Shown here: positions 2,755 to 31,206 of the stretch, one piece after another
How the letters are laid out: each line of letters begins with the position of its first letter
Numbering within the stretch: the first letter of the stretch is position 1
DNA from: an uncultured Metabacillus sp.
GTDB taxonomy: Bacteria > Bacillota > Bacilli > Bacillales > Bacillaceae
NCBI RefSeq assembly: GCF_947503125.1
Contig: NZ_CANNCR010000045.1
Location: 1 to 33,846, forward strand
DNA: 33,846 nucleotides
Direction: 5' to 3'
Translations under genes and position numbers: made by a program
Notes under the pieces: model-generated
Database searches by the model: none
Seen by the model: the letters and a program-made list of their open reading frames with translations, nothing else
What the model was told of the DNA's origin: nothing

Positions 2755-3024
2755 GATAATATACGGTTTTTTAATAAAAAATATCTTAAATATTTTATGA
2801 CAATAATATTTTTGTAGTAATAACCGAACTATTGCGAATGATAGTTATTACTTATTAGCTTGGAGATTTTGTACATGCCCCTTTGAAGGAAACATCTTTA
2901 ATAATTTGAGGATGAATAATATCCTCTTTTTGACCTTTTGAGATTCTAGCCATTCTCGTGCTACTCTAGGTCCAATAGTCTCAAATGGCTTACCTTAAAT
3001 GAAGTAAGCCATTTTCACTTATTA
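2755..3024. other. Intergenic stretch with one inverted repeat and a terminator
   Basis: No plausible gene was seen. An 8-bp inverted repeat GTAATAAC/GTTATTAC lies at 2817-2851, of unknown function. The terminator of the dehydrogenase gene sits at 2983-3013. The rest is A/T-rich sequence without recognisable signals. Confidence 0.5.
2983..3013 (-). terminator. Terminator after the Gfo/Idh/MocA gene
   Basis: An 11-bp perfect stem AAATGGCTTAC/GTAAGCCATTT with a 9-nt loop lies just past the stop of the dehydrogenase gene (3025). The U-tract on the minus strand is weak, so its efficiency is uncertain. Confidence 0.6.
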
Positions 3025-9819: not shown

Positions 9820-12411
9820 TTAAGTAAGTAGTTTCAACTCATTATTCTTATATAGATTTTCATCAGAGATTAAATAATCTCCGATCAACTCTAAAGCGAT
9901 CATTGTATTTAAACACCATTGTGATGTTGTATTTGTGGTTATCGTAGGAACTTCAGTAATTTTTCTCCATGCTTGAACTTCATTTTCTTCCATAGGCAGC
10001 TTCACCTGACTTATCTCTTCATTTAATAATAGATTCCAGGCTTTTGCTGCTATAGTAGGACTCTGTTTCTTTGCTGCTGCATAGGCAACTATACCTGCCG
10101 CTAACATTCGATTATTAAATAATTTGTTATGCAATTTTCCATTACTTCTTTTCAGCTTTTCTTCTTGACTTAGTTCATAGAATTCACCGAATTCCGCCAG
10201 CATGTCTTCCCATTCTTCGTCTTCTAATAATTGGGCAAGCTCCATCCAGGCCTGCGGACCGCCAAAAGCGATAATCATATGATAGCCTCCCTCATTACCA
10301 TCCCCCATATGATAAAGCTCATTTGTCTCTGGGTTATATCCAAAGGTTGGACCTGAAAGCAATCGTAGTGGCAATTGTTTGAACGTTTCTATTCCTTTTA
10401 CTATTTTATTCCGATAGTCGATATTCCCTGTTCTCTCCCATTCTGATAGCCAATTTGAACAAAACGCTGACCAATCCGGACCTACACGAACATGTGTCTT
10501 ATAGTGATCATCTGGGTAAAATTCTCTCATCGGGTCTAAATTTGAAAGCGCAAGTTCTGCGTCTTTCACTTCGATTAATAAGTCCCTAGTACGTTCATCT
10601 GTTGTGAGAAAATAATAAAATTTATGAAGACCTGCCATGCTAATTCTTGCTTCTTTACAGCCACATCCCCAATGGACGACATTATGTCTTGACCCAAGAC
10701 CTGCGTATTCACCAAAGTGGTAGACATCTACTTCACTTGTATGACGGGTCATCGCCTCAGCCATCTTGAAGATATCTTCCCTGCCGGAACGTAAAAAGGC
10801 ATACCATAGCCAAATATTCGGCACCAGTTCTGTATTTTGCCAAGCAAAGCCCCCCAAATCGTATCTCCATTGATGACGAATCGGATCGTAGGTATGCATG
10901 ACATCTCCATAATTCCAGAAGCCATACCATCTGCGTTGTTCAATTTCACGTTTGTAAAAATCAATCGCCTTATCTAGCTCTGATTCTAATTGCGCTTTTA
11001 TTGGATGGCTTGTATCTGGTAAACTCCAAATACCTAATGCTTTTGTTTCATAATAATAGGCTGGATCACAGACTAATAGAATCGGTGATTGCCATTCTTC
11101 TGTTTTCTCGACTAACTCTTCATGTGATGGTGCATTGATATAGCACTGTAAAAAAATCTCACTAGTGTTTGCAATTCCATATGGCGTTGCTCGCATTTCG
11201 TCAAATCCTTCATAAGCACTCACCACATGAGTATCATTGCTGTAATGTCTTAAATCCATTGCCTCACAGTCAGGAGACCAAAACCAGACCTTTAGTTTTG
11301 TCGTTGTTTTATTTAATCCAGTTACTTCTAAAGTTGAAGGGAACTTCTGCCAAAAGTTTTTAACGCCGATTCCGATCCCGCCATTTTCACCACCAGCATA
11401 AATCAATCCCTTGGATCTTGTGCCATGAGTTGATTCAACCCATGAGTAGCCGCTTTTTGTTCGTTTCGCTATTCGATAATGATCTGCAGAATCCTGGGTT
11501 AGTTTAAAATCGTTCCAAATTGCATTTTGCTTGACGTGGTCAAGTAAGTCCTCATATTTTTGTTCTGAAAGATTGATCATTTCTCCATTAATTTGTTTTT
11601 CATACAGTCCATCGGCATTTCGATGTCGTCTTGTTAACAATAACTGAGCCGGTTCTGAGTAAATGCCTGCATCACCAGCAAAGCGAATATGGCGATTCCA
11701 TGGCTCTCCTTTTAAAGGAATTGAAAATTCCATTCCCAGCCCTTTAATAAAATCAGTTTGAGGATCTCCATCATAGAAAAATGTATGAACCATTTTTATC
11801 GAAGGAGATTCGGCATAAAAATAGATACGTAAATGGAAAGGCAGCCATGATCGTTTATGTTGATTAGAAATAGTTGTATGCTCACCTTCAATTTTAATAA
11901 CACATCTTAATGGGCCGTGCTGTTCAATTTCTGCATGTTTGATCTTGCTTTCTAATGGGATCTCCTGAATCGTCTTTACCTCAGAAGTCTCATCTCTCAC
12001 TTCTTGTATTGAAATTAATCTTCCTTTTTCCCCAAGTATTTTTGAACCGCTTACAATTTTCTCGATAAAATGGATTCCTTGTTTGTTTAGGAACCATTGC
12101 ATTTCTCCGGTATCCACTTTTATCTGATTTTCTGATTCTATTACTTGCAAGGGGATTTCTGGATTTTGAGTTTCACCAACTGTTATTTCATATGAACCAT
12201 CATTTGGTTGAAAAACTGCACTATGGCCGGTCCATTTCACACTTCCATCCGGCCAATAAGCCATCGGCCAGCTTTGAACAGGAGTCTTCTTACCATCTTC
12301 ATCGATTAGAGTTACCGTGTCTTCTCTTTTTAGAATTCCTCTCCCCCACGGGACTCCCCATGAAACACCAGAGGGACTTTTCGGACTATGGTTTAACCAT
12401 TTCAATTTCAA
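9820..12411 (-). CDS. YetA/PcRGLX-like protein, putative rhamnogalacturonan exolyase (PL26-like)
   Basis: A large 863-aa protein without a signal peptide, close to the length of Bacillus subtilis YetA. The N-terminal RIFT-barrel opening (SPSGVSWGVPWGRG, then WPDGSVKWTGHS at about residues 50-60) and the central YGFWNYGDVMHTYD ... WRYDLGGFAWQNTEL region (about 495-530) are characteristic of the YetA/PcRGLX group. Family PL26 enzymes release unsaturated disaccharides from rhamnogalacturonan I. The apparent cytoplasmic location suggests action on imported oligosaccharides. The start is TTG at 12411 with a modest AAAGG upstream; no ATG fits. The gene lies upstream of the DUF1961 gene and the importer. 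I am fairly sure of the family, less of the substrate. Confidence 0.85.
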   Translation of the reverse strand: MKLKWLNHSPKSPSGVSWGVPWGRGILKREDTVTLIDEDGKKTPVQSWPMAYWPDGSVKWTGHSAVFQPNDGSYEITVGETQNPEIPLQVIESENQIKVDTGEMQWFLNKQGIHFIEKIVSGSKILGEKGRLISIQEVRDETSEVKTIQEIPLESKIKHAEIEQHGPLRCVIKIEGEHTTISNQHKRSWLPFHLRIYFYAESPSIKMVHTFFYDGDPQTDFIKGLGMEFSIPLKGEPWNRHIRFAGDAGIYSEPAQLLLTRRHRNADGLYEKQINGEMINLSEQKYEDLLDHVKQNAIWNDFKLTQDSADHYRIAKRTKSGYSWVESTHGTRSKGLIYAGGENGGIGIGVKNFWQKFPSTLEVTGLNKTTTKLKVWFWSPDCEAMDLRHYSNDTHVVSAYEGFDEMRATPYGIANTSEIFLQCYINAPSHEELVEKTEEWQSPILLVCDPAYYYETKALGIWSLPDTSHPIKAQLESELDKAIDFYKREIEQRRWYGFWNYGDVMHTYDPIRHQWRYDLGGFAWQNTELVPNIWLWYAFLRSGREDIFKMAEAMTRHTSEVDVYHFGEYAGLGSRHNVVHWGCGCKEARISMAGLHKFYYFLTTDERTRDLLIEVKDAELALSNLDPMREFYPDDHYKTHVRVGPDWSAFCSNWLSEWERTGNIDYRNKIVKGIETFKQLPLRLLSGPTFGYNPETNELYHMGDGNEGGYHMIIAFGGPQAWMELAQLLEDEEWEDMLAEFGEFYELSQEEKLKRSNGKLHNKLFNNRMLAAGIVAYAAAKKQSPTIAAKAWNLLLNEEISQVKLPMEENEVQAWRKITEVPTITTNTTSQWCLNTMIALELIGDYLISDENLYKNNELKLLT

Positions 12412-12619
12412 AACCTACACAACCTTTCCTCTTATTTTGAAAATGTAAGAATACCTTCAACTCTATTATTCTGCAGATTATTTTTCCCTTCAATCAGACT
12501 ATTTTGATATATAGCACTCAACGTTAGAACTCTAGGTAATGATACTTTTTTGCCATTTAATCTTTTTTTGCAATTGCCTGCTTTATTGCTGTTTTGTTGA
12601 TAATGAAGCTATTGACGTT

Positions 12620-12633
12620 GTTATACGCTTACA
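12620..12633 (-). promoter_or_regulatory. Imperfect cre-like site before the YetA-like gene
   Basis: TGTAAGCGTATAAC on the minus strand matches the cre core TGTAAGCG but departs from consensus at two downstream positions. It is about 210 bp ahead of the YetA-like start and could allow weak CcpA control. Confidence 0.35.
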
Positions 12634-12645
12634 ATTATTGATTTT

Positions 12646-13071
12646 CTATATAATAAGAGAATCTTTTTTCTCTTTAACTTTTTCTTTGATTTCAGCTATC
12701 CCTTTTTGAATTTCCTTCATCTTTTTATCATCAAGTTTATAAAAATTCATGGCAATAATTGATACAATCAACCCAAATGCTGGTAAACCAAACGCTAACA
12801 CTAATGTTGCTGCAAATAATGATGGTGTTAATGCTTCCCCAACCTGCGGAAATGCTGAATGATAACCAATAATCCCATCGAATATACGCGCTGCCATTAA
12901 GAGCGTACTTGTTAGCATAACGGCAAGCCCAACTAGTCCTGTCGCATAATAAGAGACAAATCCTAAAATAAATAGGTGAAGATTTGATGACGTGTTATTT
13001 AAGGTAAAAAAAGCAATTTGCCATATCCTTGCATTGTTATAATCATTTCCATTCATTGTTGTACTTGACAT
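12646..13071 (-). pseudogene. GPH-family sugar:cation symporter with a large internal deletion
   Basis: A 141-aa product that joins the two ends of a glycoside-pentoside-hexuronide symporter (MFS_2, MelB type). Residues about 1-66 are the usual start (RIWQIAFFTLNNTSSNLHLFI, two membrane segments, then AARIFDG), and residues about 68-141 are the usual C-terminus (last membrane segments, then NFYKLDDKKMKEIQ and a charged tail). Roughly 320 residues of the normal 450-480 are missing, so transport is not expected. The frame is kept across the join (about 12870-12885), and the start is intact: ATG at 13071 with AAGGGG 8 nt upstream. It stands between the AraC regulator and the YetA-like gene, where an intact copy would have imported a sugar for this locus. 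Confidence 0.82.
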
Positions 13072-13277
13072 GATTTTGTCCCCTTTTTAAAGAATTAAAT
13101 TCAACCACATGTCTTTTATAAGTTTAAGGTATTCATTTGTTTAAACATTCTAGAGGCGAATTACTGTTTAGACCTCTATATGAGTCTTCTATAAACCAGT
13201 AAGTACTCCCCATAGATTTTGAAGTTGATAGGTGAAGAATTGTATTTCTCCATGAACCGAAAGTAATTCAAAATAAA

Positions 13278-13292
13278 GAATCCGCTTTCAAA
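13278..13292 (-). promoter_or_regulatory. cre site (CcpA) upstream of the GPH symporter remnant
   Basis: TTGAAAGCGGATTCT on the minus strand fits the broad consensus WTGNAANCGNWNNCW at every fixed position. It lies about 210 bp before the symporter start and just past the AraC gene's stop, a reasonable place for carbon catabolite control. Function is not tested. Confidence 0.5.
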
Positions 13293-13317
13293 ATTCCATA
13301 ATAATCAAGTTTTATAT

Positions 13318-14169
13318 TCATCGATTTTGCAGACGCATTTTACGATACTCTCTTGCTGTTACGCCCATTTTCTCATTGAAATAACGGCTAAAGTGGGAGG
13401 CGCTTTCAAAACCGCAATCATAAGCAATCTCATGAATGGCTTTATCCGGCTCCATTTCAAGTAAATATTTTACTTGGGTTAGCCGACATCCCATGACATA
13501 CTCCATAACAGTAAAGCCTGTCATTTCTTTAAATACATGTGACACATAGGATTTACTTAAATTAAGTGCTTCAGCAATCATAACCAGTGTCAATTTATTC
13601 ATATAATTCTCTTGAATATAATTTGCTATATTCTCAGCATGTTCGATTTTGTCGCCTTTTTGATTCGGAATTTTGATCGATACCAACTGTCCTAGTCGAT
13701 ATACACTAATTAACACTTGTATAAATAAAGCTTTCATTTCTGTTTCTGCAAGGTGGTCATGCAATTCAGATTTATTCTTCAACTCAGCCAGTTGAGAAAT
13801 CAATGCTTCTAATCGCTTCGATTCCTTACTTTCATTTGTTCGTATTAAACAATGATGGAGCTTTTGAAAAACTTCAATTAAATACATACTTCCTAGCTCT
13901 TCCAGTAACCCTTTAATCCACTCCGGTGAAAAGTGAAGCAAACTTCGAACATAATCCATATTAGGATCAAAATTTGGTCTGTGCATTGTCAGACCATCCA
14001 TAAGCAAAATATCACCCGGTTCTAAGTCATAAATTTTGTTATGAATTAAATACCGGCACGAACCCTTATGGAAAAAATAAATTTCATATTCCGGATGGGA
14101 ATGGAAGTCAAAAGAGTAGTCATCCTTCCCTTGTATTCTATATTTCACACGCAATATTTCTTCTTTCAA
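13318..14169 (-). CDS. AraC-family transcriptional regulator with cupin sensor domain
   Basis: A 283-aa regulator. The N-terminal half is a cupin sugar-sensing domain (FHSHPEYEIYFFHKGS at about residues 22-37, YDLEPGDILLMDG, then MHRPNF), and the C-terminal ~100 residues are two helix-turn-helix motifs (LTLVMIAEALNLSKSYVSHVFKEMTG, then IHEIAYDCGFESASHFSRYFNEKMG followed by TAREYRKMR). It most likely activates the adjacent carbohydrate genes in response to their sugar. The start is TTG at 14169, 9 nt after GGGGG. It is first in the minus-strand order of this locus and separated from the symporter remnant by 246 bp. Confidence 0.92.
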   Translation of the reverse strand: MKEEILRVKYRIQGKDDYSFDFHSHPEYEIYFFHKGSCRYLIHNKIYDLEPGDILLMDGLTMHRPNFDPNMDYVRSLLHFSPEWIKGLLEELGSMYLIEVFQKLHHCLIRTNESKESKRLEALISQLAELKNKSELHDHLAETEMKALFIQVLISVYRLGQLVSIKIPNQKGDKIEHAENIANYIQENYMNKLTLVMIAEALNLSKSYVSHVFKEMTGFTVMEYVMGCRLTQVKYLLEMEPDKAIHEIAYDCGFESASHFSRYFNEKMGVTAREYRKMRLQNR

Positions 14170-14486
14170 TTTGCCATTCCCCCACGTGAAATTACTATCA
14201 GTTTATACTAAAAATGTCATCATTTCGTTACCTGAAACTGTCTTGATTATAACTGAAATTGACTGAGAGTGTTTTCATTAAAAAGAAAGTCGAGAGATAA
14301 TTGGATGCCTTATATAAAGTTTTTACATAACCGCTCCCATGGATCGTTTGAGTTATTTTCCTTTTCGTTTGTCTCATAAAAATAAAAAACGTCTTAAACC
14401 CAATATTAACAAGGGTTTAAAACGTTCATTTATATTTTTTGTTAGATTGTGATCTTGTTAGCAACAAAAATTGAAGTAAAATATAT
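14170..14486. other. Intergenic region: AraC upstream region and iolH terminator
   Basis: No gene was seen. It holds a cre-like sequence on the minus strand (TGAAAACACTCTCA at 14277-14264, one departure from consensus) about 100 bp before the AraC start, and the iolH terminator at 14381-14427. Confidence 0.45.
14381..14427 (-). terminator. Intrinsic terminator after iolH
   Basis: On the minus strand AACGTTTTAAACCC pairs with GGGTTTAAGACGTT around an 11-nt loop, followed by a long U-rich tract (TTTTTTATTTTTAT with the stem end). It lies 60 bp beyond the iolH stop and would also work weakly in the other direction. Confidence 0.85.
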
Positions 14487-20211: not shown

Positions 20212-20823
20212 TTAATCAATTATCTGGAACCCAGCTGTTTTTAAAGGACCTATAGAAAATAGTTTTACAGTTTGCTTAGCTAATTGATTAGGAGAATAGT
20301 GTAAATCCTCCTTTAACCACCAACTTACTGTTCCTATTAAAGCAGAAGAAATAAAAGTAGTTAATAATTCCGGTTGAATTGATAGGATTTCTTCATCAAG
20401 TCCATATGTTAAAAACTCTTCATTAAATTTTTCTTTAATAACATCTTGCATCTTAGTATTAAATCCATTAACACCGTTTTCAAATAACATCACTTTAAAA
20501 AACTTTTTATGTTCAGCAATTTTATTAAAAATTGTTTCAATTAATAGTTGGAAATTCGCTATTTTGACCATTTTGTTTTGAACATAGCTGCATGGCTTAA
20601 TTGCGTCTGCTAATTCATTAAATATTTCATTAAGAAGGGTATCTAATAAATCCTGCTTATCTTTATAATGCAAATAAAAAGTAGCGCGATTTACCAATGC
20701 ACAATCGGCAATATTCTGAATTGTGATGGACTCGTACCCTTTCGTTTGAATTAAATCAAGAAATGCTTCTTTAATTAATTTACGCGTACGAACAATTCGC
20801 AAATCAGTTTTTGTTGACATCAT
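20212..20823 (-). CDS. TetR/AcrR-family transcriptional regulator
   Basis: A 203-aa regulator with the N-terminal TetR helix-turn-helix (TRKLIKEAFLDLIQTKGYESITIQNIADCALVNRATFYLHYKDK, seen at about residues 9-52 and quoted in family terms). The C-terminal half resembles the TetR_C_8/DhaS-like type. The ATG at 20823 has AAGGTGG 5 nt upstream, with a second ATG directly after it. It is divergent from the YhgE/Pip-like gene, and the space between them holds an inverted repeat just behind that gene's promoter, so it most likely represses the membrane protein and perhaps itself. The inducer is unknown. Confidence 0.9.
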   Translation of the reverse strand: MMSTKTDLRIVRTRKLIKEAFLDLIQTKGYESITIQNIADCALVNRATFYLHYKDKQDLLDTLLNEIFNELADAIKPCSYVQNKMVKIANFQLLIETIFNKIAEHKKFFKVMLFENGVNGFNTKMQDVIKEKFNEEFLTYGLDEEILSIQPELLTTFISSALIGTVSWWLKEDLHYSPNQLAKQTVKLFSIGPLKTAGFQIID

Positions 20824-20906
20824 TACACCCACCTTAAAAATTTGTTAGTTTCTAGACATATCAGGTTTATTTGTCGTATATCTAATAAATCGAAAGATAT
20901 TGATTA

Positions 20907-20975: not shown

Positions 20976-21002
20976 TGATTATTTTTTGAGGAGTTGGTCA
21001 TT

Positions 21003-22187
21003 TTGTGTGTAATGAAGAATTTCTTTTCTCAAAAATTGTTTTGGGGAGGGTTGTTAGCAATCATTGTAGTTGTCAGTATATTCATGGTCGGTTTTATGGG
21101 CTCTATAGTAAACCCTGAACCAAAAGATTTACCAGTAGCTATCGTAGTGGAAGATAAGGGTGTTGAAATGCCTAATCATACATTAAACTTTGGGGAAACA
21201 GTTAAAGAAACTTTAATAACAAATAAGGATATACCTTTTAAATGGAGTGTCTTAAAGGACAAAGACGAAGCAATGAACGGAATGAACAATAGATCTTACT
21301 ACGCAGCAATTATCATTCCGGAAAATACTTCGCAAAATATTGCTGCGTTGCTTCAATCAAGCCCTGGGCAGCCTCAAGTAGAAGTCATTACAAACGAAGG
21401 AATGAATTATACTGCAGCAAATACAATAGGACAAATTGTTAACCAAATGGGTTTGGAAATGAACACTCAAGTTCAAAATATCATGTTTAGTCAATTAGAA
21501 GCACAGTCTGTATCACTTCCAGCTGATAAAATAAAACAAGTAATAAATCCTTTAAAAATTGAAAAACAGGTAATAAATGATGTAGATAGCCATACAGCTA
21601 ATGGAAATACCCCAGTATTATTTACACAAATTCTTTGGCTCTCTGTTTTTATTTGTTCTTTAATACTATTCATCACTTTAAAGAAAACGACAAATTCACA
21701 AATAAGTTTAACTTCTATTGCAAGTCAGGTAATTGGCGGTATTTTATTTCTATTAGTTATTGTTACGTCTATTATGTTATTTGCAGATTACATATTAGAT
21801 GTGAATATTCCTAATAAAGAAATCACCTTCCTTTTCCTGCTTTTGAGCGGCTTTACCTTCTTTTTGTTACAAAATACTTTATTCAATTGGATTGGAGTTA
21901 TTGCAGCACCATTTATTTTACTAATGTTTTTATTTTCAATCCCTGTACTGAACTTACCTGTCGAGTTTTTACCAGACCTAACGAAGGATTGGTTATATTC
22001 GTGGATTCCATTAAAATTTAGTGTCGAAGGTCTAAGAGGGATATTCTTCTTTGATAACCATAATATTGGTGAATCGTTGAATATACTGGTTTATATTGGA
22101 ATAGGCTCTCTAATTCTTATGACACTTTCTATTTTCAAAAAACAAATTAAAAAAGAGAAACAAATTGAAATAACCAATTCAAACTAA
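21003..22187 (+). CDS. YhgE/Pip-like ABC-2-type membrane protein
   Basis: A 394-aa membrane protein. One N-terminal membrane segment (LFWGGLLAIIVVVSIFMVGFMGSIV) is followed by an extracytoplasmic domain of about 180 residues (with LPVAIVVEDKG and YYAAIIIPENTSQNIAALLQ) and then five or so C-terminal membrane segments. This is the layout of the YhgE/Pip and ABC-2 permease group, whose members serve in export or phage infection. No ATPase gene accompanies it. The start is uncertain: TTG at 21003 is 9 nt after GAGGAG, while ATG at 21012 is rather far from it. It is controlled, by position, by the divergent TetR regulator. The precise substrate is unknown. Confidence 0.75.
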   Translation: MCVMKNFFSQKLFWGGLLAIIVVVSIFMVGFMGSIVNPEPKDLPVAIVVEDKGVEMPNHTLNFGETVKETLITNKDIPFKWSVLKDKDEAMNGMNNRSYYAAIIIPENTSQNIAALLQSSPGQPQVEVITNEGMNYTAANTIGQIVNQMGLEMNTQVQNIMFSQLEAQSVSLPADKIKQVINPLKIEKQVINDVDSHTANGNTPVLFTQILWLSVFICSLILFITLKKTTNSQISLTSIASQVIGGILFLLVIVTSIMLFADYILDVNIPNKEITFLFLLLSGFTFFLLQNTLFNWIGVIAAPFILLMFLFSIPVLNLPVEFLPDLTKDWLYSWIPLKFSVEGLRGIFFFDNHNIGESLNILVYIGIGSLILMTLSIFKKQIKKEKQIEITNSN

Positions 22188-22214: not shown

Positions 22215-22244
22215 AAAAAAACTCTCGTGTACCGAGAGTTTTTT
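22215..22244. terminator. Bidirectional terminator between the YhgE-like gene and the acyl/sulfur operon
   Basis: A 12-bp perfect stem AAAAAACTCTCG/CGAGAGTTTTTT with a 6-nt loop gives a U-tract in both directions. It serves the plus-strand membrane-protein gene and the minus-strand cysteine desulfurase gene, and so marks the end of the seven-gene operon. Confidence 0.9.
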
Positions 22245-22256
22245 CCTTTATAAATA

Positions 22257-23450
22257 TCATCCTATATGAACACGTTCCTCTATTTTAGGAGAATATTTAC
22301 TTGAAATTGTCCTTAATTGAGATACTATTTTTGAAATTAACCTTACAGCCTCAATGATTTCTAATTGAGTTGTAAACTTCCCAAAACTTATTCTAATAGA
22401 GCTTCTAATTTCATCATCAGACTTCCCCATTGCTTTTAAAACATAGGATAATTTCGCTGAAGAGGAGCTACATGCTGATGAAATTGACACACATACACCA
22501 TATTGATTTAAGGCAGCTGCTAACGCTTCTCCTCTAATCCCTGAAAACTGTATATTTAATGTAGTTGGTACTGAAGATTCAAGGCTTCCATTTATGGACC
22601 AGTTAGAGAGATTTTTTAATTCTTCTAAAAAAATATTTCTTAAATCCTGCATTTGTTGATGATTGGAACTTAAATGATCTCTAGCAATTTTTGCTGCAAC
22701 TCCTAATCCAATGATTCCCGCTACATTTTCAGTCCCTGAACGAATCCCCATTTCTTGTGATCCACCGAATATAAGAGGGGATATTTTAATGCCTTCTCTT
22801 ATATACAAGCATCCAACACCTTTAGGACCATATATTTTATGGGCTGAAATAGAAAGACTATCAACAGCTATTTCTTTAACATCAATCTTTACCTTTCCAA
22901 CCCCTTGGACAGCATCACAGTGAAAATGAATTCCGTTTTCCTTGCAGATTCTACTAATTTGTTCAATCGGTTGAATTGAACCTACTTCATTATTAACCAT
23001 CATGATGGTTACAAGGCAGGTTTGTGTGTCAATAGCATTCAATAATTCTTTTATACCAATCACACCATTAGAATCTACTGGAAGCTTTGTAATTCTAAAA
23101 CCATAGTATTCTTGAAGATGCCTGCAAGCTTCTAGAATGGCTGGATGTTCAATAGAGCTTGTAATGATATGTTTTTTATCTAAGTTCTTAAGTGCAATCC
23201 CCATTAATATGGTAGAGTTGGATTCAGAAGCACCACTCGTGAAAATAATTTCGTTTTCTTCAGCATTAATTAGTTCAGCAACATTTCTTCTAGCTTCACT
23301 AATGGCATCTTTAGCCTCTTTACCTAAAAAATATTTACTAGAAGGATTACCGAAAGAATTCATCAAATAAGGAACCATTGCCTGATATACATCATGATCC
23401 AACGGGGTCGTAGCATTGTAATCAAGATAAATAGTCTCCTTATTTATCAC
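22257..23450 (-). CDS. Cysteine desulfurase (IscS/NifS class)
   Basis: PLP enzyme of 397 aa that takes sulfur from L-cysteine as a persulfide and gives alanine. The start YLDYNATTPLD, the PLP-stacking His102 (SSIEHPA), Asp179 (HCDAVQG), the PLP lysine Lys205 (SAHKIYGPKG) and the catalytic Cys327 in SSACSSSSAK are all present, so it should be active. The GTG start at 23450 shares one base with the TAG stop of the scaffold gene, with AAGGTG 7 nt before it. It is last in a seven-gene operon of acyl-activating and carrier genes, which suggests a dedicated sulfur supply, either for an iron-sulfur cluster or for a sulfur-containing product, rather than housekeeping. It ends just before a strong terminator. 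Confidence 0.93.
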   Translation of the reverse strand: MINKETIYLDYNATTPLDHDVYQAMVPYLMNSFGNPSSKYFLGKEAKDAISEARRNVAELINAEENEIIFTSGASESNSTILMGIALKNLDKKHIITSSIEHPAILEACRHLQEYYGFRITKLPVDSNGVIGIKELLNAIDTQTCLVTIMMVNNEVGSIQPIEQISRICKENGIHFHCDAVQGVGKVKIDVKEIAVDSLSISAHKIYGPKGVGCLYIREGIKISPLIFGGSQEMGIRSGTENVAGIIGLGVAAKIARDHLSSNHQQMQDLRNIFLEELKNLSNWSINGSLESSVPTTLNIQFSGIRGEALAAALNQYGVCVSISSACSSSSAKLSYVLKAMGKSDDEIRSSIRISFGKFTTQLEIIEAVRLISKIVSQLRTISSKYSPKIEERVHIG

Positions 23451-23854
23451 TAAAATGCACCTTCGCCTTCTACTAGAAACTCTTTTTTCTCAAGGTTTTT
23501 CTGAATTGGATGTGAACATTGATGGATGATGCTAAGTCCAATGTCAATACAATGATATTGAGCTGGTTCAAGTTCACCTAACCAATCTGAAACTTCATCA
23601 CGAGTGATTGAAGTAAGTTCATCGAATGTTTTTCCTTTAATGACTTCTGAAACGATACTTGCTGTTGCAATGGAGGTTGAACATCCATATGCTAGGTAAG
23701 AAACCTCAGTAATTTGTTGTTCCTCAACTTTCAAAAACATATGAACGGTATCGCCGCATATTGGGTTACCAATTTCCACAACATAATCGTGGTTCTCCAT
23801 TTCACCAATATTTCTTGGATTCATAAAATGCTCGCAAATAATATCATTAAACAT
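23450..23854 (-). CDS. IscU/NifU-type iron-sulfur scaffold protein
   Basis: A 134-aa scaffold that receives persulfide sulfur from a cysteine desulfurase. The three cluster-ligating cysteines of the family are visible: Cys33 in GNPICGD, Cys58 in AYGCSTSIATAS and Cys102 in QYHCIDIG. The usual Asp after the first Cys is present. Extra cysteines occur at 7 and 113. The ATG at 23854 directly follows the TAA of the LuxE-like gene, with GGAGG 7 nt upstream, and its stop overlaps the desulfurase start. Such tight coupling argues that both work with the LuxE-like protein's pathway. It might deliver a cluster or sulfur to a protein in this operon, but none of them is a clear iron-sulfur enzyme. Confidence 0.92.
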   Translation of the reverse strand: MFNDIICEHFMNPRNIGEMENHDYVVEIGNPICGDTVHMFLKVEEQQITEVSYLAYGCSTSIATASIVSEVIKGKTFDELTSITRDEVSDWLGELEPAQYHCIDIGLSIIHQCSHPIQKNLEKKEFLVEGEGAF

Positions 23855-25027
23855 TTACTCGCCTCCCGGCACAGCCATCATTTGCTTTTCTTTTTCTTCA
23901 ATAAACTTTTCTAAGTTAATCGCACAGCAGCCCACCTCTACACCTGGCATACGTGAAATATAAACTAATTTTTGCCCATTTCGTCCACATTCACATGTAG
24001 TATCTTTACGTAAATATCCCACATCTTCTGTCAAGACAAAACCAGGATAGGAAATGCAAGTAGGATCATAAATAGCAATAACGCCACGCTCACCATATTC
24101 TACCTCTTCTAAAACATTCCGAGGATTTCTTAGTGATAAATGAACCCAAGGTGGAACATGCTTTTCTTGTTGGTCACATTCTACTGCTAACATATTTGCT
24201 TCTACTAACCCGTACATATCACGTACATTATTAATTTGCACACCTAGATATTCATGACAAAGGCGGTTAAATTCTTCCCTTGGAATTTCTTCGCCAGTAA
24301 ACTTTTTCCATCCACCTAGTGTGATAATGTAGCTTTTCTTTTCCAAGTTTAACTTTAGGTTATTTTCCATACAGTATTTGATTAGCTTATGAATAAGAAA
24401 AGGCGGTCCAACTAAATGACGAGTATGTTTTCCTTCCCATGAATGAAGTAATTCCACCGCTTTCTCAGGATTGAATGTAACACGTTTTACCACATTTGCT
24501 GCTCCATCAAGTAAACCTGCAAATATATTTAATGCTTTCACCATGCCCATTTCTGGCATCTCTTCAGTTGGAGGAAAAAGAAATAGTCCCATACCGCGGG
24601 AAATTTGGAAAAATTCTCTATAAGTTGATACAACACTTTCAAATGCATTATCAACAGTAATTTTGTCACGTCTAGAAACGCTCGGAATACCACTTGTTCC
24701 CGTACTGCGCATCTCATATTCAACTTCATTTAATTTCGATGTCATTAAAAGGTGTGAATCACATTGTTTAAAAGTCTGTACCGGAATTAGTGGGATTTTC
24801 ACTAAATCTTCGAACCCTTTAACGTCTTCTGGAGTTACTTGTTTTTTATGACAAACATCTCGATAAAACTCATTATTTTCATAATGGTGCTTAAAATTCT
24901 CAGCAATGATACTACCTTTATACTCATTTACAAGGTCGAAAGGCAGTTTATATAAATCATGTGAACTGCCGACTAACGTATTAAGTGGATTAAGTCCTAA
25001 ATCTCTTAATTGTTCAGCTATATTCAT
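23855..25027 (-). CDS. LuxE-like acyl-protein synthetase (adenylate-forming)
   Basis: A 390-aa enzyme of the LuxE/PaaK-like acyl-protein synthetase family. Known LuxE activates a fatty acid as acyl-AMP and passes it to its own cysteine, then to the reductase LuxC. Visible are the ATP-binding RSTGTSGIPS (residues 107-116), LGGWKKFTGEEI (about 237-248), RDMYGLVEANM (269-279), and the C-terminal CECG (345-348) and GCC (366-368), the latter near where LuxE carries its acyl-accepting cysteine. The ATG at 25027 overlaps the ACP stop as ATGA, with GGAGG 7 nt before it. No luxC, luxD or luxAB gene is near, so the acyl acceptor is open; the ACP or the scaffold protein are candidates. Confidence 0.85.
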   Translation of the reverse strand: MNIAEQLRDLGLNPLNTLVGSSHDLYKLPFDLVNEYKGSIIAENFKHHYENNEFYRDVCHKKQVTPEDVKGFEDLVKIPLIPVQTFKQCDSHLLMTSKLNEVEYEMRSTGTSGIPSVSRRDKITVDNAFESVVSTYREFFQISRGMGLFLFPPTEEMPEMGMVKALNIFAGLLDGAANVVKRVTFNPEKAVELLHSWEGKHTRHLVGPPFLIHKLIKYCMENNLKLNLEKKSYIITLGGWKKFTGEEIPREEFNRLCHEYLGVQINNVRDMYGLVEANMLAVECDQQEKHVPPWVHLSLRNPRNVLEEVEYGERGVIAIYDPTCISYPGFVLTEDVGYLRKDTTCECGRNGQKLVYISRMPGVEVGCCAINLEKFIEEKEKQMMAVPGGE

Positions 25028-25284
25028 TGACTTACCTCCTGAGAATTTTGGATATTATTAATTAACGTAATCAAATCATCAATTGTTTTGCACCAGCTAT
25101 AATCATCTTGAGGTATAGAGATGTTAAATTTCTCTTCTAAGTCCAATACCAGTTCAACTCGATCAGCAGAATCCAGAGCTAGGTCTCCTGACATATCACT
25201 ATCAAAATTAATTTTCTCAGCTTTTAATGAAGTAAAAGAAGTAATAGAGTTTTGGATCACTTTCAGCATTTCTTGTTTCTCCAT
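25024..25284 (-). CDS. Acyl carrier protein
   Basis: An 86-aa acidic protein with the phosphopantetheine attachment site in LALDSADRVEL, Ser39. Like other carrier proteins it should hold acyl chains as thioesters on a phosphopantetheine arm after modification. The site reads DSADRVE rather than the DSLDxVE of the fatty-acid ACP, which together with its operon place suggests a specialised carrier. The ATG at 25284 has GGAGG 6 nt upstream. It lies between the flavoprotein gene (15 bp ahead) and the LuxE-like gene (4-bp overlap). The expected donor is the fatty acyl-AMP ligase encoded two genes earlier. Confidence 0.93.
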   Translation of the reverse strand: MEKQEMLKVIQNSITSFTSLKAEKINFDSDMSGDLALDSADRVELVLDLEEKFNISIPQDDYSWCKTIDDLITLINNIQNSQEVSQ

Positions 25285-25299
25285 GTTTATCCTCCAACA

Positions 25300-26346
25300 T
25301 TAATTGGTTTGCAATTTCCCTGCTAAGTATTTGGCATCTTCTCCAACGCCTAATAATAAAGCCGAACCTCTTCGATATTGCCAAGATAATCCTATGAAAA
25401 ATAACCCCGGTTCTTTTGTTACTCCTCTTTCATGAATCGGATTACCCTTTTCATCAAAAATATTTGATATATCTAACCAATCATAATCAGGTTTAAATCC
25501 GGTGGCCCAGATAATATTTTTCGGTTGTATCTCATTACCATTTTCAAATTTAATTTTTTGATCACTAAAACCAGTTGTTCTAGGAAGCATCTTAACTTTC
25601 CCTTCCTTGACTAATGGTATTATTTCCTTACCAATGATAGGATCATTCTTTTTAAGAAATTGGCCCGGTTTTGAATCTACAGTAAGCTTGGATATTCCCA
25701 GTACACTGAACCACCAAAAAATACTTTTGTTAAAAACCTGATATGGCAGGAATTTAGGCTTCTTACCCAATGATAGATATACATCTCTTGTAGAAGACAG
25801 CTCAGCAGCAATTTGCATTCCCGAGTTCCCGCCACCAACCACCAAAGTTGTTCCATCTTTTAGTTGAGAAGGATTTTTATAGTGTGCAGAATGAATTTGA
25901 AAAATATCATTTGGTATTTTGTCACTAAAATCAGGTATAGATGGTTTTTGAAATGGACCTGTAGCGATAATAAGATTTTTTGTTAAAAATTCTTCACCAG
26001 AGTTTGTGATAATATGAAAATTATCTTCCTCTTTAGAGACTTTTGTAATTTTTGTATTTAGTTTTACAGGCAGATTGAATTTTTTGGCGTACTCTTCCAA
26101 GTAATCCGCAACTTCATCTTTTGTTGGATAACCATTCTGGTCACCGGGTAATGACATACCTGGTAATGCACTATGTGAGCGAGGCGTAAACAATCTTAAC
26201 GAATCATAACGTAATCGCCAAGAATCTCCTACTCTAGCATGGCTTTCTATTAGTAAAAATGAATTTGTCATATCTCGGAGATAATACCCCATAGCCAAAC
26301 CAGCTTGCCCTGCCCCAACTATTATTGTGTTATATCGGTTTACCAC
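25300..26346 (-). CDS. Flavin-containing monooxygenase-like NAD(P)/FAD oxidoreductase (CzcO type)
   Basis: A 348-aa flavoprotein. The FAD-binding GAGQAG is at residues 11-16 (after IIV), and the NADPH-binding GGGNSG at 171-176 (VVGGGNSGMQIAAEL). A FQIHSAHYKNP stretch matches the FxxxHSxxY part of the class B monooxygenase fingerprint, and ATGFKPDYDWL is the late conserved motif. Such enzymes oxygenate N or S atoms or insert oxygen beside ketones. I chose the GTG at 26346, 9 nt after AAAGGA; TTG at 26364 is possible but lacks a site. It lies 27 bp after the acyl-AMP ligase and 15 bp before the ACP, so its substrate may be a carrier-bound or sulfur-containing acyl group; that is inference. Confidence 0.88.
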   Translation of the reverse strand: MVNRYNTIIVGAGQAGLAMGYYLRDMTNSFLLIESHARVGDSWRLRYDSLRLFTPRSHSALPGMSLPGDQNGYPTKDEVADYLEEYAKKFNLPVKLNTKITKVSKEEDNFHIITNSGEEFLTKNLIIATGPFQKPSIPDFSDKIPNDIFQIHSAHYKNPSQLKDGTTLVVGGGNSGMQIAAELSSTRDVYLSLGKKPKFLPYQVFNKSIFWWFSVLGISKLTVDSKPGQFLKKNDPIIGKEIIPLVKEGKVKMLPRTTGFSDQKIKFENGNEIQPKNIIWATGFKPDYDWLDISNIFDEKGNPIHERGVTKEPGLFFIGLSWQYRRGSALLLGVGEDAKYLAGKLQTN

Positions 26347-26373
26347 AGAAACATATCCTTTCAAAAATCTTGG

Positions 26374-28134
26374 CTATTCTTTTTTATCGATGTGCCAAAT
26401 GACTAATTCGTTATTTAAAAATTCCTGTTTACAAGCATTTCTTTGAATTTTCCCACTGGAAGTTTTAGGAATGGTGCCTGTTTTTATTAAACAAATACAA
26501 TATGGTTGGATCCCATGTTCTTCCATGACTTTTTGACGAATGCGAGTTAAGACATTATTAGCATCTGACTTTTCATTTTGATGACTTGATTCTCTTGGTC
26601 TATAAGCTCTTTCGACTTCAGCAACAATGACTAGTTTTTCTTCATTCTCTTCAGTTATCGAAAATGAAGCACTGCATCCATTTCGTATTCCTATATGAGC
26701 TTTTTCCGTTGTTAATTCAATATCTTGGGGATAATAATTTTTTCCCCTTAAGATAATGACATCTTTCAATCTTCCGGTAATATATAACTGACCATTATTA
26801 ATAAATCCTAGGTCTCCAGTTTTAAGATATTTATCAGCACTTTCATTAGATATAAGTCCGCTAAAACTTGCATTATCCCCTGTACCGAAATAACCTTTTG
26901 CCACATTTACGCCATTGACCCATATCTCACCTATTTCATTTTCTGAGCAGATATGATATGTATTTGGGTTAACGATTTTGATATCTTGTTCTAGATAGGT
27001 TGTTCCGCAGCTGACTAATGCAGTGGATTTATTGCTTTCACTAGTCTCTTGTACTTTATTGTCTCTTAAAGCTTGTGAATCAAAGTGCTTGATTATTGGC
27101 TTTTTATTACTTTCTCCACCTGAAATAAACAGAGTAGCTTCTGCCATTCCATAGCACGGATAAAAGCTTTCTTCTTTAAATCCACAATTTTTAAAGGCCT
27201 CAGCAAACTTTTTTAAAGTTTCATATCTTACTGGTTCGGCACCATTATAGGCTACTTTCCAAGAGCTTAAATCAATTAGAGTTTTCTGTTCATCAGTTAT
27301 CTTTTTTACACATAACTCATAAGCAAAATTTGGTGCTCCACTTACGGTTGCTTTATACTTCGATATGGCTTGTAACCATCTCAATGGTTTTTGCAAGAAA
27401 TCCATTGGTGACATCAGGATACTCGTTCCGCCTAAAAACAGTGGTTGAAGTACGTTCCCGATTAAACCCATATCATGGTATAAAGGCAGCCAGCCTAATA
27501 CGATTGTGTTTTCATTATTATTAAATGCTTTTTTTATCATTTCTTCGTTGTAAAGAATGTTTTGATGTGTGACCATTACACCTTTTGGTTGTGAAGTAGA
27601 TCCTGATGTGTATTGTAGAAAAGCAATGGATTCTCCGTTAACATTTGGCAGTGTCCATTGATCGGCTTGGGGGAGAATTAACTCATCAATGCAAATCCAT
27701 TTTATATCCATTGAGGCTGTTTCCTCAGAAAAATGTTTGACAATTTTAGAGTGTAGCTGTGAAGTAGTAAAGATTATGTTTGTTGAAGCATCTACTAAAA
27801 TACTTTTAATTCTATCCATGTTTCTACTAAGAGTAGGTGGATAAACAGGTACTGCAATTACACCTGCATAAAGGCATCCTAGAAAAGCTTTAACATATTC
27901 CACCCCTGGAGGATACATAATTAAGGCTTGTTTCCCAGGAAATCCTTTATTTTGCAAATAAGCTGCAATTCTTTTAGAATCCACAACTAATTGCTTATAC
28001 GAAAGGAAAATTTCATCCTCTTCTCCAATTAAGTACTTAAAAGCTATTTTATGTGGATGCTTTTTTGCATTGTTATTCAATAAATCTATTAAAGAGGAGT
28101 GTGTACTATTTTTATTTAAACTGGTTTGCAGCAT
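26374..28134 (-). CDS. Fatty acyl-AMP ligase (FAAL)
   Basis: A 586-aa adenylate-forming enzyme that makes acyl-AMP from a fatty acid and hands it to a carrier protein. FAAL rather than acyl-CoA ligase features are seen: YTSGSTSQPKGVMVTH (from residue 175), WLPLYHDMGLIGNVLQPLFLGG (from 215), WKVAYNGAEPVR, YGMAEATLF (from 328) and GRLKDVIILRGKNYYPQDIE; the catalytic Lys is at about 562 in KTSSGKIQR. I chose the ATG at 28134 because GAGGGG lies 9 nt before it; the ATG at 28161 overlaps the stop of the preceding gene but has a weaker site. With the ACP in the same operon, it likely starts the pathway. Confidence 0.92.
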   Translation of the reverse strand: MLQTSLNKNSTHSSLIDLLNNNAKKHPHKIAFKYLIGEEDEIFLSYKQLVVDSKRIAAYLQNKGFPGKQALIMYPPGVEYVKAFLGCLYAGVIAVPVYPPTLSRNMDRIKSILVDASTNIIFTTSQLHSKIVKHFSEETASMDIKWICIDELILPQADQWTLPNVNGESIAFLQYTSGSTSQPKGVMVTHQNILYNEEMIKKAFNNNENTIVLGWLPLYHDMGLIGNVLQPLFLGGTSILMSPMDFLQKPLRWLQAISKYKATVSGAPNFAYELCVKKITDEQKTLIDLSSWKVAYNGAEPVRYETLKKFAEAFKNCGFKEESFYPCYGMAEATLFISGGESNKKPIIKHFDSQALRDNKVQETSESNKSTALVSCGTTYLEQDIKIVNPNTYHICSENEIGEIWVNGVNVAKGYFGTGDNASFSGLISNESADKYLKTGDLGFINNGQLYITGRLKDVIILRGKNYYPQDIELTTEKAHIGIRNGCSASFSITEENEEKLVIVAEVERAYRPRESSHQNEKSDANNVLTRIRQKVMEEHGIQPYCICLIKTGTIPKTSSGKIQRNACKQEFLNNELVIWHIDKKE

Positions 28135-28160
28135 TTCTTTATTCCCCTCAAAATTTATCA

Positions 28161-28493
28161 TTAATTTCTTTCATAGGCATTGATCGCATTTACACTATGG
28201 CTAATTGCAGCACCTGCTTTAAGAGCAGCTGCAACAGCAATTGCTTCAATTACTTCCTCCATCGTTCCACCTAACTTTTTATATTTGGCTACGTGAGCTT
28301 CAATACAATAAGGGCAACCAGTAGTATGAGCAACAGCAATCGCAATTAACTCTTTTGTCTTAGTTGGAATTTCACCATTCTGAAACACTTCATGTTCAAA
28401 CTGCATAAACTTTTGTGCTACTTGCGGAGACCTTTCTTTTAGTTCCCCCAACTTATTCAAATAAGATAATTTGTACAAAGTATCATCTGCCAT
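28161..28493 (-). CDS. Carboxymuconolactone decarboxylase/AhpD-like CxxC protein
   Basis: A 110-aa all-helical protein of the CMD/AhpD family. The redox pair Cys60-x-x-Cys63 followed by His67 (TGCPYCIEAH) and the upstream Glu of KTKELIAIAVAH are present, as in alkylhydroperoxidase AhpD-like proteins, so a thiol-disulfide or peroxidase role is likelier than decarboxylation. The ATG at 28493 has AGGGG about 10 nt upstream. It is the first gene of the operon behind a long leader. In a pathway that has a flavin oxygenase and sulfur donors it may remove peroxide or keep thiols reduced; this is inference. Confidence 0.9.
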   Translation of the reverse strand: MADDTLYKLSYLNKLGELKERSPQVAQKFMQFEHEVFQNGEIPTKTKELIAIAVAHTTGCPYCIEAHVAKYKKLGGTMEEVIEAIAVAAALKAGAAISHSVNAINAYERN

Positions 28494-29053
28494 TTTAAAA
28501 ATTCCCCTCTCAAATTATAATTTTGACACAAGATTAAGTTTACGAACAATAAAAGGAAATATTACTGCTTTTTTAGCACCACCTCCTATTTAGGATAAAT
28601 TAACTATTTCATCTTAAATTGTTAATGAAAGTAATTATTATCCATTTTCTGCCACATATAAGTTTTACAAATTGGATTCTACTTGATCTGATTTTTGTTG
28701 TCAACAGCATTGTTAGATTATCTTCTCTAGCTTAATATTCTCTTTACAAATATTTTTTGAATTATTTTTATACCAAAATAACTACGTACTAAATTTCTTT
28801 TTCACTTTTTATAATGTTTTTTAATAGAAACTAAATGCAATTTATATTTTAAAAATATTAATTAACTTATTTTAAGAGAAACAACAAAGATAAAATTTAC
28901 AAAAAAATTAAAAATGTGGATTTATTTACAGATAAATAAAATCTGTTGATTTTTCTAGAATCTTCAATGCTATTAATTAAACACTAAGACAAATTGCTCA
29001 CCTTAGAACCAAAGGGGAATTTCACGTAAAGACAAAATTTGGATGTTTTATCA
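28494..29053. other. Long A/T-rich control region of the acyl/sulfur operon
   Basis: No gene was seen. It contains the operon promoter (28676-28704), a leader of about 175 nt with an orphan AGGAGGT at 28587-28581 that has no fitting open frame behind it, and a weak ATTAAC/GTTAAT inverted repeat (28599-28626). The stretch 28705-29053 is very A/T-rich and shows nothing else I can name. Confidence 0.5.
28676..28704 (-). promoter_or_regulatory. Sigma-A promoter of the seven-gene operon
   Basis: On the minus strand, a perfect -35 TTGACA (28704-28699) and -10 TAGAAT (28681-28676, five of six) are separated by exactly 17 nt. The predicted transcript begins about 175 nt before the AhpD-like start. 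This is the best promoter match in the region. Confidence 0.8.
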
Positions 29054-30567: not shown

Positions 30568-31020
30568 TTATTTCCGTTTAAATCCTTGTGGTTTTAGCTG
30601 ACTTGTCATTTTCGTCATGATCTCAACAAGTGTGGACTGTTCCTCCGGTGTTAGCTGATTAAACGGACCAGAAAGCAGCTCGACTTGGGCATTTTTCATT
30701 TTCGTGATCGTCTCTTTACCAGCCTCTGTTAATTTGACAATTCGTGTTCGCGCATCGTACTTGTCTGGTTCACGATATACCATTCCTGCAAGCTCTAAGC
30801 GATCAATCATTTGTGACATTGAACTCGAACGAACCTCCAGCCGCTCCGCAAGCTGACCGATTGTACAACCATCATGTTTCCACAAAAAGCGAAGAATCAG
30901 CCATTGCGTTTTTGTAATTTCAGTTGCCTTTTGATTACTCCACTGATTACGCTTCATAAACCGGCCAATCGCTTGAAAACAGTCTACAAAATGTTCCAGC
31001 TGTTTATCACGTGCTTCCAT
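30568..31020 (-). CDS. MarR-family transcriptional regulator
   Basis: A 150-aa winged helix regulator. The helix-turn-helix CTIGQLAERLEVRSSSMSQMIDRLELAGMV lies at about residues 54-83 and the wing DKYDARTRIVKLTEAG directly after, which is the MarR signature; helical ends serve dimerisation. No conserved sensing cysteine is obvious except Cys14 and one in the helix-turn-helix region, so the signal is unclear. Two ATGs (31023 and 31020) follow GAGGTG; the second has the better spacing of 8 nt. It lies upstream of the nitroreductase and O-methyltransferase genes on the same strand and probably represses them and itself. Confidence 0.92.
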   Translation of the reverse strand: MEARDKQLEHFVDCFQAIGRFMKRNQWSNQKATEITKTQWLILRFLWKHDGCTIGQLAERLEVRSSSMSQMIDRLELAGMVYREPDKYDARTRIVKLTEAGKETITKMKNAQVELLSGPFNQLTPEEQSTLVEIMTKMTSQLKPQGFKRK

Positions 31021-31042
31021 CATACATTCACCTCACAATTAA

Positions 31043-31072
31043 ATTATATAGCGATCCTAAATAAATTGTCAA
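31043..31072 (-). promoter_or_regulatory. Sigma-A promoter of the MarR gene
   Basis: On the minus strand, a perfect -35 TTGACA (31072-31067) and a perfect -10 TATAAT (31048-31043) are 18 nt apart. The spacer carries the element AGGATCGCTATA shared with 30520-30548, so autoregulation is likely. Confidence 0.75.
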
Positions 31073-31140
31073 TACATGGTTATCTTCTATATAATTTTCC
31101 TAAAAACTTGTTTAGAATCTCTAAATCTATTATTAAAAAC

Positions 31141-31186
31141 TTGCTTACTATTACTTTATCTGGTAAGATAACTGACGAACGTTCGT
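31141..31186 (+). promoter_or_regulatory. Promoter and palindromic operator of the TetR gene
   Basis: -35 TTGCTT (31141-31146) and -10 TAAGAT (31164-31169) are 17 nt apart. The perfect palindrome ACGAACGTTCGT (31175-31186) lies right behind the -10 box, the classic place for an autoregulating TetR repressor. Confidence 0.68.
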
Positions 31187-31206
31187 AAAAATCGAGGTGA
31201 AGTTTA

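Follow-up and report, generated by a model that had tools for sequence, protein, structure and literature searches.

A rare, apparently mobile operon of Bacillus relatives combining acyl-activation genes with a candidate dedicated NifS/IscU pair

The stretch of DNA analyzed here, referred to as the window, comprises 33,846 nucleotides of contig NZ_CANNCR010000045.1 from an uncultured Metabacillus sp. Its minus strand carries an operon of seven tightly packed open reading frames (ORFs), from ahpD (28493) to nifS (22257), in which genes for acyl activation stand together with a NifS/IscU-type pair. The operon is real and rare and, judged from its distribution, mobile, while its chemistry is a proposal. 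Our preferred reading, to which we give a probability of about 0.4, is that it moves horizontally, directs the biosynthesis of a small acyl-derived molecule for export, and has a sulfur relay of its own. The product is probably an exported acyl compound, and it may contain sulfur.

The seven genes and the families named for them in the original prediction were all confirmed with Pfam and NCBIfam (Table 1). In transcription order, the intergenic gaps are −1, 9, 15, −4, 0, and −1 nt; the predicted minimum of −4 was borne out, but the maximum is 15 nt and not about 27, a larger gap that would fit a later start of the gene for the small flavin-dependent monooxygenase-like protein (FMO). The fatty acyl-AMP ligase (FAAL) and the free-standing acyl carrier protein (ACP) are encoded about 1.1 kb apart, with the FMO gene between them. 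FAAL models were matched over nearly the full length, all below the curated cut-off (PRK05850, 474 versus 775 bits), and the nearest PDB entries are 7r7e and 3kxw; for the FMO, which has two GxGxxG motifs, they are 4usr, 4usq, 4c5o, and 4a9w. The NCBIfam scores of LuxE (170 versus a cut-off of 550 bits), NifU_clost (112 versus 188), and NifS (462 versus 531) were likewise low, the desulfurase falling below both the NifS and the IscS equivalog cut-offs and just above that of the PRK02948 subfamily (305 versus 304 bits). Because most NCBIfam matches lie below curated cut-offs, the operon proteins are regarded as diverged members of their families.

The catalytic residues of these proteins are conserved. 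The CPYC motif of the AhpD-like protein is kept in 5 of the 5 aligned homologues (the relative from genome G886 has two domains, and the motif just in the first), the phosphopantetheine motif DS(A/P/T) of the ACP in 7/7 rows, the lysine and loop cysteine of NifS in 7/7 rows, and the three cysteines and the aspartate of IscU in all seven full-length rows, an eighth (G886), shortened by a frame break, standing outside this count. Among the seven proteins, conservation is highest in LuxE and AhpD, with 84% and 86% identity to a Priestia plasmid copy (L007), against 53–67% for the other five. Between two Priestia alleles, the ratio of nonsynonymous to synonymous substitution rates was 0.011 for AhpD and 0.035 for LuxE, within a range of 0.01–0.26 for all nine genes (the seven plus two neighbors described below).

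In relatives, a core of FMO, ACP, LuxE, IscU, and NifS genes recurs in the same order in three variants (A, B, and C, Table 1), while in a fourth (D, genome G886) the order is changed. The G886 cluster encodes a phosphopantetheinyl transferase, a two-domain AhpD, MFS-like ORFs, LuxE, IscU, NifS, ACP, FAAL, an ACP-KS-AT polyketide synthase (PKS), and an FMO; its domain states were left uninterpreted because the assembly has several frame breaks. The prediction of a set of all seven families did not hold, since variants B and C are without FAAL and AhpD and the set is therefore not fixed. Conservation of gene order, on which the prediction was staked, was found throughout variant A and for the five core genes in B and C, but not in G886. 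It had also been argued that a NifS/NifU pair that is the only one of its genome and occurs without the acyl genes would speak for chance proximity; in variants B and C the pair stands with LuxE and ACP, but without FAAL and AhpD. These refutation tests mostly favor the original prediction.

A sulfur donor pair dedicated to the operon was part of the original prediction, and this agrees both with the other genes of the host and with the distribution of the pair. Elsewhere in the host genome there is one more NifU_N protein (C3:30415), whose gene adjoins a SufS-like one (C3:29229). Together with three NifS-like genes, of which one is interrupted by a stop codon, the latter brings the other desulfurase-like genes of the host to four; the Suf names were given from position and similarity. 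In a sample of the order (397 genomes), IscU matches occurred in 307. The best E-values were ≤9e-50 in five of these (G000, G411, G240, G259, and G434), with 57–69% identity over nearly the full length in the four that are not the host. The remaining 302 genomes had best E-values of at least 6.8e-20, and among the matches listed there, identity was 31–40% and confined to residues 2–106. LuxE was found at E ≤ 1e-30 in 5/397 genomes, and these are exactly the five that carry the operon IscU clade. In the plasmid collection, LuxE (80–90% identity) and IscU (60–80%) were each detected in 14 records, all of Priestia. Four other plasmid matches of IscU at E ≤ 1e-20 were 36–44% identical, three of them annotated as NifU. 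NifS was less selective, with 161 plasmid records at E ≤ 1e-60, of which the best 14 were the same Priestia records (59–60%) and the next reached 46%.

Because the gene order is conserved and NifS/IscU is inherited together with LuxE, the operon is one unit, and an accident of proximity was rejected on the same grounds of conserved order and co-occurrence. The distribution points to a pair dedicated to the operon and not to a general housekeeping role. This bears on the idea that the product is a plain lipid or polyketide-like metabolite without sulfur, LuxE acting as a hydrolase or transferase that removes the acyl group from the ACP while NifS and IscU meet a general demand for sulfur when the operon is induced. 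Lipid-polyketide pathways are known to start from FAAL and ACP pairs (PMC11837247), and a PKS with a KS domain is present in the G886 relative; a general supply, however, fits poorly with so strict a co-occurrence of LuxE with an IscU clade that no other genome in the order sample has, and we consider this explanation unlikely. A role in anti-phage defense was also rejected: a PADLOC scan of 10 proteins matched NifS only (as SspA and DndA), as expected of any desulfurase.

The feature that sets the operon LuxE apart lies at its active site. In an alignment with LuxE chain 7xc6_E (profile positions 22–370), C368 falls on the C-terminal cysteine, which is known as the acyl acceptor of LuxE, and H290 is also kept. 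A further cysteine, C367, directly precedes C368 (GCCA) in 10 of the 10 rows of the operon's own LuxE family, among which those of Cytobacillus horneckiae and Cytobacillus kochii look identical. It is present in none of 11 gap-free outgroup rows from 10 genes (L026/L072, which are one gene, L027, L009, L073, L074, L076, L077, L078, L079, and L082), which read KGC or RGC. Thirteen further outgroup rows (L080, L081, and L083–L093) were unreliable at this place and uncounted; none shows two adjacent cysteines in the alignment. Four other residues (C284, H290, C345, and C347) show no variation within this family; the set is not special, because it is also found in outgroup LuxE proteins (L072, L073, L074, L076, and L077). 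C257 was dropped as a family-specific residue, being present in some outgroup rows. Separately, five LuxE-family proteins from other Bacillota (L085, L088, L089, L091, and L092) have a CST-type motif, or several, at the C-terminus, as if they carried several acyl-accepting cysteines.

Under our preferred reading, the FAAL would adenylate a fatty or other acyl acid and load it onto the operon's own ACP, and the FMO would oxidize the carrier-bound acyl group or its sulfur. NifS would draw sulfane sulfur from cysteine and pass it by way of IscU to the LuxE site, where the acyl group, held on C368, would be attacked by a persulfide on C367 or on IscU, yielding a thiocarboxylate or an acyl persulfide. 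Reduction of the sulfur–sulfur bond and release of the thio-product would then fall to the dithiol AhpD-like protein (in some relatives, a selenothiol UxxC protein resembling PrdB), and the neighboring YhgE/Pip protein would export the product under regulation by TetR. A more specific form of this scheme is that LuxE is a synthase of a new type, turning carboxylates into thiocarboxylates (or acyl persulfides) at a vicinal Cys-Cys site. It would receive sulfur from an ISC-type scaffold instead of a ThiS-like carrier, and its product would be released by an interchangeable AhpD- or PrdB-like reductase, the choice of which follows selenocysteine (Sec) decoding by the host. We regard this form as doubtful.

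The exchange of the head gene is itself a finding. In variants B and C, the operon is headed by a PrdB-like ORF that stops at an in-frame TGA (codon 169, 176, or 170), past which, in 3/3 genes, about 90 conserved codons start with UGECHNVL and end near the FMO start; ordinary ORF calling truncates the gene at the TGA. When the TGA was read as Sec, the TIGR04483 score rose from 99 to 148 bits in Mesobacillus zeae (L025) and from 94 to 144 bits in Halalkalibacter urbisdiaboli (L012), and the match in the three genes (148, 144, and 141 bits) extended to position 213–220 of 238. As all three scores are below the cut-off of 300, identity with D-proline reductase PrdB was rejected in favor of a relative. 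SelA scored above its cut-off in both Sec-type genomes tested (G434 and G856, with M. zeae outside this test) and in none of four others (G000, G240, G259, and G886). A hairpin resembling a selenocysteine insertion sequence, with a UGUAU loop, starts 18 nt past the UGA in L012 and L030; that of L025 has one mismatch, and was present in a 60-nt fold and absent from a 50-nt fold. The in-frame UGA, the conserved UxxC continuation, and SelA together indicate that, where the host decodes Sec, the head gene codes for a selenoprotein with a UxxC motif; its counterpart in the window is an AhpD-like protein with CxxC. D-proline reductase and GrdB are both listed as UxxC selenoproteins (PMC13188914). 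We infer that the AhpD-like and PrdB-like head proteins share a role, despite belonging to different families, and the swap between cysteine- and selenocysteine-based redox genes would then be a natural experiment on when selenium pays.

The strongest rival to the sulfur relay is a private Fe-S supply, in which NifS and IscU would form an iron–sulfur cluster factory for an enzyme of the operon (a U32-type protein in variant B; here perhaps LuxE, through C284, H290, C345, and C347) and the product would be sulfur-free. Several observations weigh against the sulfur relay in this respect. The Fe-S ligand set of IscU, three cysteines and an aspartate, is kept, so that this protein may assemble clusters and not pass sulfur to another. 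Variant B has two U32-type genes directly after nifS, whose products are possibly Fe-S-dependent: the second fits the CX12CX3C cysteine spacing of UbiV (PMC6747719). The M. zeae contig ends after nifS, and U32 genes could lie beyond. Other parts of the scheme are also open to objection. LuxE may simply load the ACP, because no FAAL is near it in variants B and C, and the action of the AhpD-like protein on a sulfur–sulfur bond is itself a proposal. The AlphaFold model of LuxE, built from four sequences, had a mean pLDDT (predicted local distance difference test) of 42.5, too low to place C367, and was not used. One gene is split in 2 of the 14 plasmid copies (the FAAL gene in NZ_CP085443 and the LuxE gene in NZ_CP018876).

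On the other side, no recognized Fe-S protein is present in variant A, to which the window belongs, yet NifS/IscU is found in every copy seen. The invariant C/H/C/C residues of LuxE, which might be read as cluster ligands, occur also in LuxE without such a neighborhood (L026/L072) or from other lineages (L073, L074, L076, and L077), and this motif is a zinc site in PaaK relatives, which we count against this reading. Recognized Fe-S candidates, the U32-type genes, were seen in variant B only and IscU/NifS in all variants, which favors, without proving, a role of NifS/IscU in the core chemistry. We hold a private Fe-S supply to be possible, but not probable.

The U32-type pair of variant B lies at 8032–6135 (−) in L012 and at 12349–14225 (+) in L030. 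With an FMO gene in the same operon, it could perhaps be an O2-independent counterpart to an oxygenase. The second gene had no Pfam or NCBIfam match, and UbiU was rejected for the first, which scored 52 against a cut-off of 440 bits in the NCBIfam UbiU model and whose cysteine spacing does not fit the CX6CX16CX38C pattern of UbiU (PMC6747719).

The distribution of LuxE suggests that the operon is a rare gene set that moves horizontally among Bacillus relatives. In the host's own family, LuxE was found at E ≤ 1e-20 in 2 of 80 genomes, the host and G055, whose LuxE is 26–29% identical and stands next to a gene that resembles LuxC by eye. In the phylum sample, 2 of 398 genomes had matches at E ≤ 1e-30, namely the host and a 33% identical relative in an unrelated cluster. 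Counting the centre genomes, LuxE occurred in 2/41, 2/43, and 2/16 genomes of the families of G434, G259, and G240, and a scan of GTDB-220 with LuxE alignment A1 yielded four loci. Some records are redundant, G434 being H. urbisdiaboli (L024) and the G411 copy being plasmid NZ_CP085443. The stretch from TetR to nifS was fully covered in 14/14 Priestia plasmid records, with 93–100% DNA identity to L007, and the same seven-gene order is found on chromosome-sized contigs of G240 and G259 and in C. horneckiae. Because of this patchy distribution and the plasmid copies, horizontal transfer is the likely explanation.

Further signs of rearrangement were seen around individual copies. A 998-aa ORF replaces ahpD and the 5′ end of the FAAL gene in C. 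kochii (L023, 4062–7134), leaving a natural broken copy; the ORF reads like a Tn3-family transposase. At 2845–3894 of the same locus is a second FMO, 45% identical, beside an ORF resembling a metal-transporting ATPase. In G856, the surroundings of the variant-B operon (L030, 3740–5134 and 16034–16450) comprise a MATE-like transporter gene, an integrase-like fragment, and a repeat of the 3′ end of the MATE gene, all read by eye; the operon lies between them and looks as if carried by an integrating island.

Just past nifS in the window are a YhgE/Pip-type membrane protein gene and a divergent TetR gene, to which the original prediction made no reference. Relatives of both adjoin the operon in seven other intact variant-A loci, on Priestia plasmids (L007, L008, L013, and L094), on chromosome-sized contigs (L010 and L011), and in C. 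horneckiae (L022). By BLAST, the TetR relatives are 59–62% identical (L007, L008, L010, L011, L013, and L022) and the Pip relatives of the loci compared 50–54%. The pair travels with the operon, and the unit is thus larger than seven genes, although its position is upstream of ahpD in the seven relatives and downstream of nifS in the window. Neither a Pip nor a TetR relative was found in the stretch of C. kochii L023 examined. No palindrome common to the Pip-TetR gap and the ahpD promoter, such as a shared TetR operator, was found.

A single promoter and a shared terminator had been predicted. The proposed promoter is the top match of a promoter scan of the window, but the whole scan, with 30 sites against a mean of 33.7 in shuffled sequences, did no better than chance. 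A similar element, TTGACAAC followed by AATCC or ATTCC and then ATTTGTA, was seen by eye upstream of ahpD in L007, L010, and L011, two of which come from one genus; L022, the fourth relative compared, has a different element. The terminator was recovered as a hairpin, AACTCTCG-GTACA-CGAGAGTT, followed by a T-run, read directly from the sequence and not listed by the scan tool.

Table 1. Features of the operon and its surroundings in the window, and variants of the operon in relatives.
Feature	Position or source	Strand	Description
TetR-family regulator	20212..20832	-	Divergent from Pip gene; PF00440 + PF14278
YhgE/Pip-type ABC-2 membrane protein	20994..22187	+	Probable exporter; PF12698 64 bits; TIGR03061 101 bits (cut-off 96)
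Intrinsic terminator	22215..22240	-	8-bp stem, 5-nt loop, T-run
NifS/IscS-type cysteine desulfurase	22257..23450	-	397 aa; PF00266 (Aminotran_5) 289 bits; SAHK + SACSS motifs
IscU/NifU-type scaffold	23450..23854	-	134 aa; PF01592 (NifU_N) 106 bits; three Cys + Asp kept
LuxE-type acyl-protein synthetase	23855..25027	-	390 aa; PF04443 169 bits; 7xc6_E LuxE E=3.5e-39
LuxE C367-C368 codons	23924..23929	-	Extra Cys directly before acyl-accepting Cys
Stand-alone ACP	25024..25284	-	86 aa; LDSAD phosphopantetheine site; PF00550 39 bits
Small flavin-dependent NAD(P)H monooxygenase-like protein (FMO)	25300..26364	-	354 aa; Pfam Pyr_redox_3 + FMO-like
FAAL	26374..28161	-	595 aa; AMP-binding 234 bits + FAAL models
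AhpD-like/carboxymuconolactone decarboxylase (CMD) protein	28161..28493	-	First gene; 110 aa; CPYC..H motif; PF02627 78 bits
Sigma-A type promoter	28676..28704	-	TTGACA-17-TAGAAT; 11/12 match
Variant A	Window, Priestia, G240, G259, C. horneckiae		Preceded by AhpD + FAAL; TetR/Pip adjacent
Variant B	H. urbisdiaboli L012, G856 L030		Preceded by PrdB-like gene; followed by two U32-type genes + Pip-like gene
Variant C	M. zeae L025		Methyltransferase + PrdB-like gene in front; contig ends after nifS
Variant D	G886, L031		LuxE 53%; order changed; PKS present
UGA-encoded PrdB/GrdB-like selenoprotein, UGEC motif	L012 12868-12086	-	Heads related operon
	L030 7500-8300	+	Heads related operon
	L025 7885-8664	+	Heads related operon

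The window contains 34 ORFs of at least 100 aa, and the Pfam scan covered 32 of them and the 86-aa ACP, those at 543–854 and 30874–31188 being outside it. As anticipated, no PKS, nonribosomal peptide synthetase (NRPS), or LuxC family was matched in this set. Outside the operon, the scanned ORFs are mostly sugar-utilization, transport, and regulator genes; among them, an 863-aa PcRGLX-family protein (9820–12411), near solute-binding and permease genes, resembles part of an ordinary plant-sugar utilization cluster.

An operon for detoxification or uptake of an organic acid, a thiol compound, or a metalloid, and not for biosynthesis, might be suspected because TIGR04169, an arsenosugar-associated model, ranks first in NCBIfam for the AhpD-like protein and ArsO second for the FMO (both below cut-off), and from the ORFs resembling metal-transport genes that by eye adjoin the Cytobacillus copies. 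No arsenic or metal gene family was matched in the nine genes, however, and the private ACP and FAAL point to synthesis, which makes this explanation very improbable.

If our preferred reading is true, the operon would represent an undescribed bacterial route for the incorporation of sulfur into acyl compounds, in which secondary metabolism makes use of an Fe-S-type scaffold. Its product is directly testable, because copies lie on plasmids of Priestia megaterium, a species developed for biotechnology (PMC8390425). In line with the original prediction, no described cluster with this gene set was found in open-licence PMC papers, which is weak as an indication of absence.

Among known systems, the operon shares with FAAL and ACP starter modules (JamA and others; PMC11837247) a FAAL with a private ACP and a tailoring oxidase in the operon; it differs in being without a PKS, NRPS, or desaturase and in adding LuxE and NifS/IscU, and the main text of that review makes no mention of LuxE, a desulfurase, or sulfur. 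The LuxE of the LuxCDE fatty-acid reductase (PDB 7xc6) belongs to the same family, with C368 and H290 kept, but the window LuxE has no LuxC or LuxD beside it, C367 is a glycine in 7xc6_E, and that chain lacks C284, C345, and C347 in the alignment. Precedents for the logic, though not for the parts, are found in two other systems. The thiocarboxylic cassettes of the thioplatensimycin type (PtmA3/PtmU4) have in common with the proposed scheme the activation of a carboxylate and the transfer of sulfur: the carboxylate is activated with coenzyme A (CoA), PtmU4 transfers the sulfur, and sulfur-carrier proteins are named (PMC6006322). In their place the window operon would use ACP, LuxE, and NifS/IscU, and neither a CoA-transferase nor a sulfur-carrier family was matched by Pfam or NCBIfam among its seven genes, no direct search for PtmU4 having been made. 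The second precedent, LarE, belongs to a different family, acts in cofactor synthesis, and is not known to involve ACP or LuxE. As a [4Fe-4S] sulfur insertase fed by IscS (PMC9283937), it offers a case in which a cysteine desulfurase is the sulfur source of an enzyme whose substrate, a carboxylate-bearing compound, becomes thiolated. The ISC and NIF assembly systems (IscS-IscU and NifS-NifU) use the same enzyme pair with the same catalytic residues, but the operon pair is not the only one of its genome, falls below the curated cut-offs among the NCBIfam matches shown, except PRK02948 for NifS, and in the order sample occurs only with LuxE.

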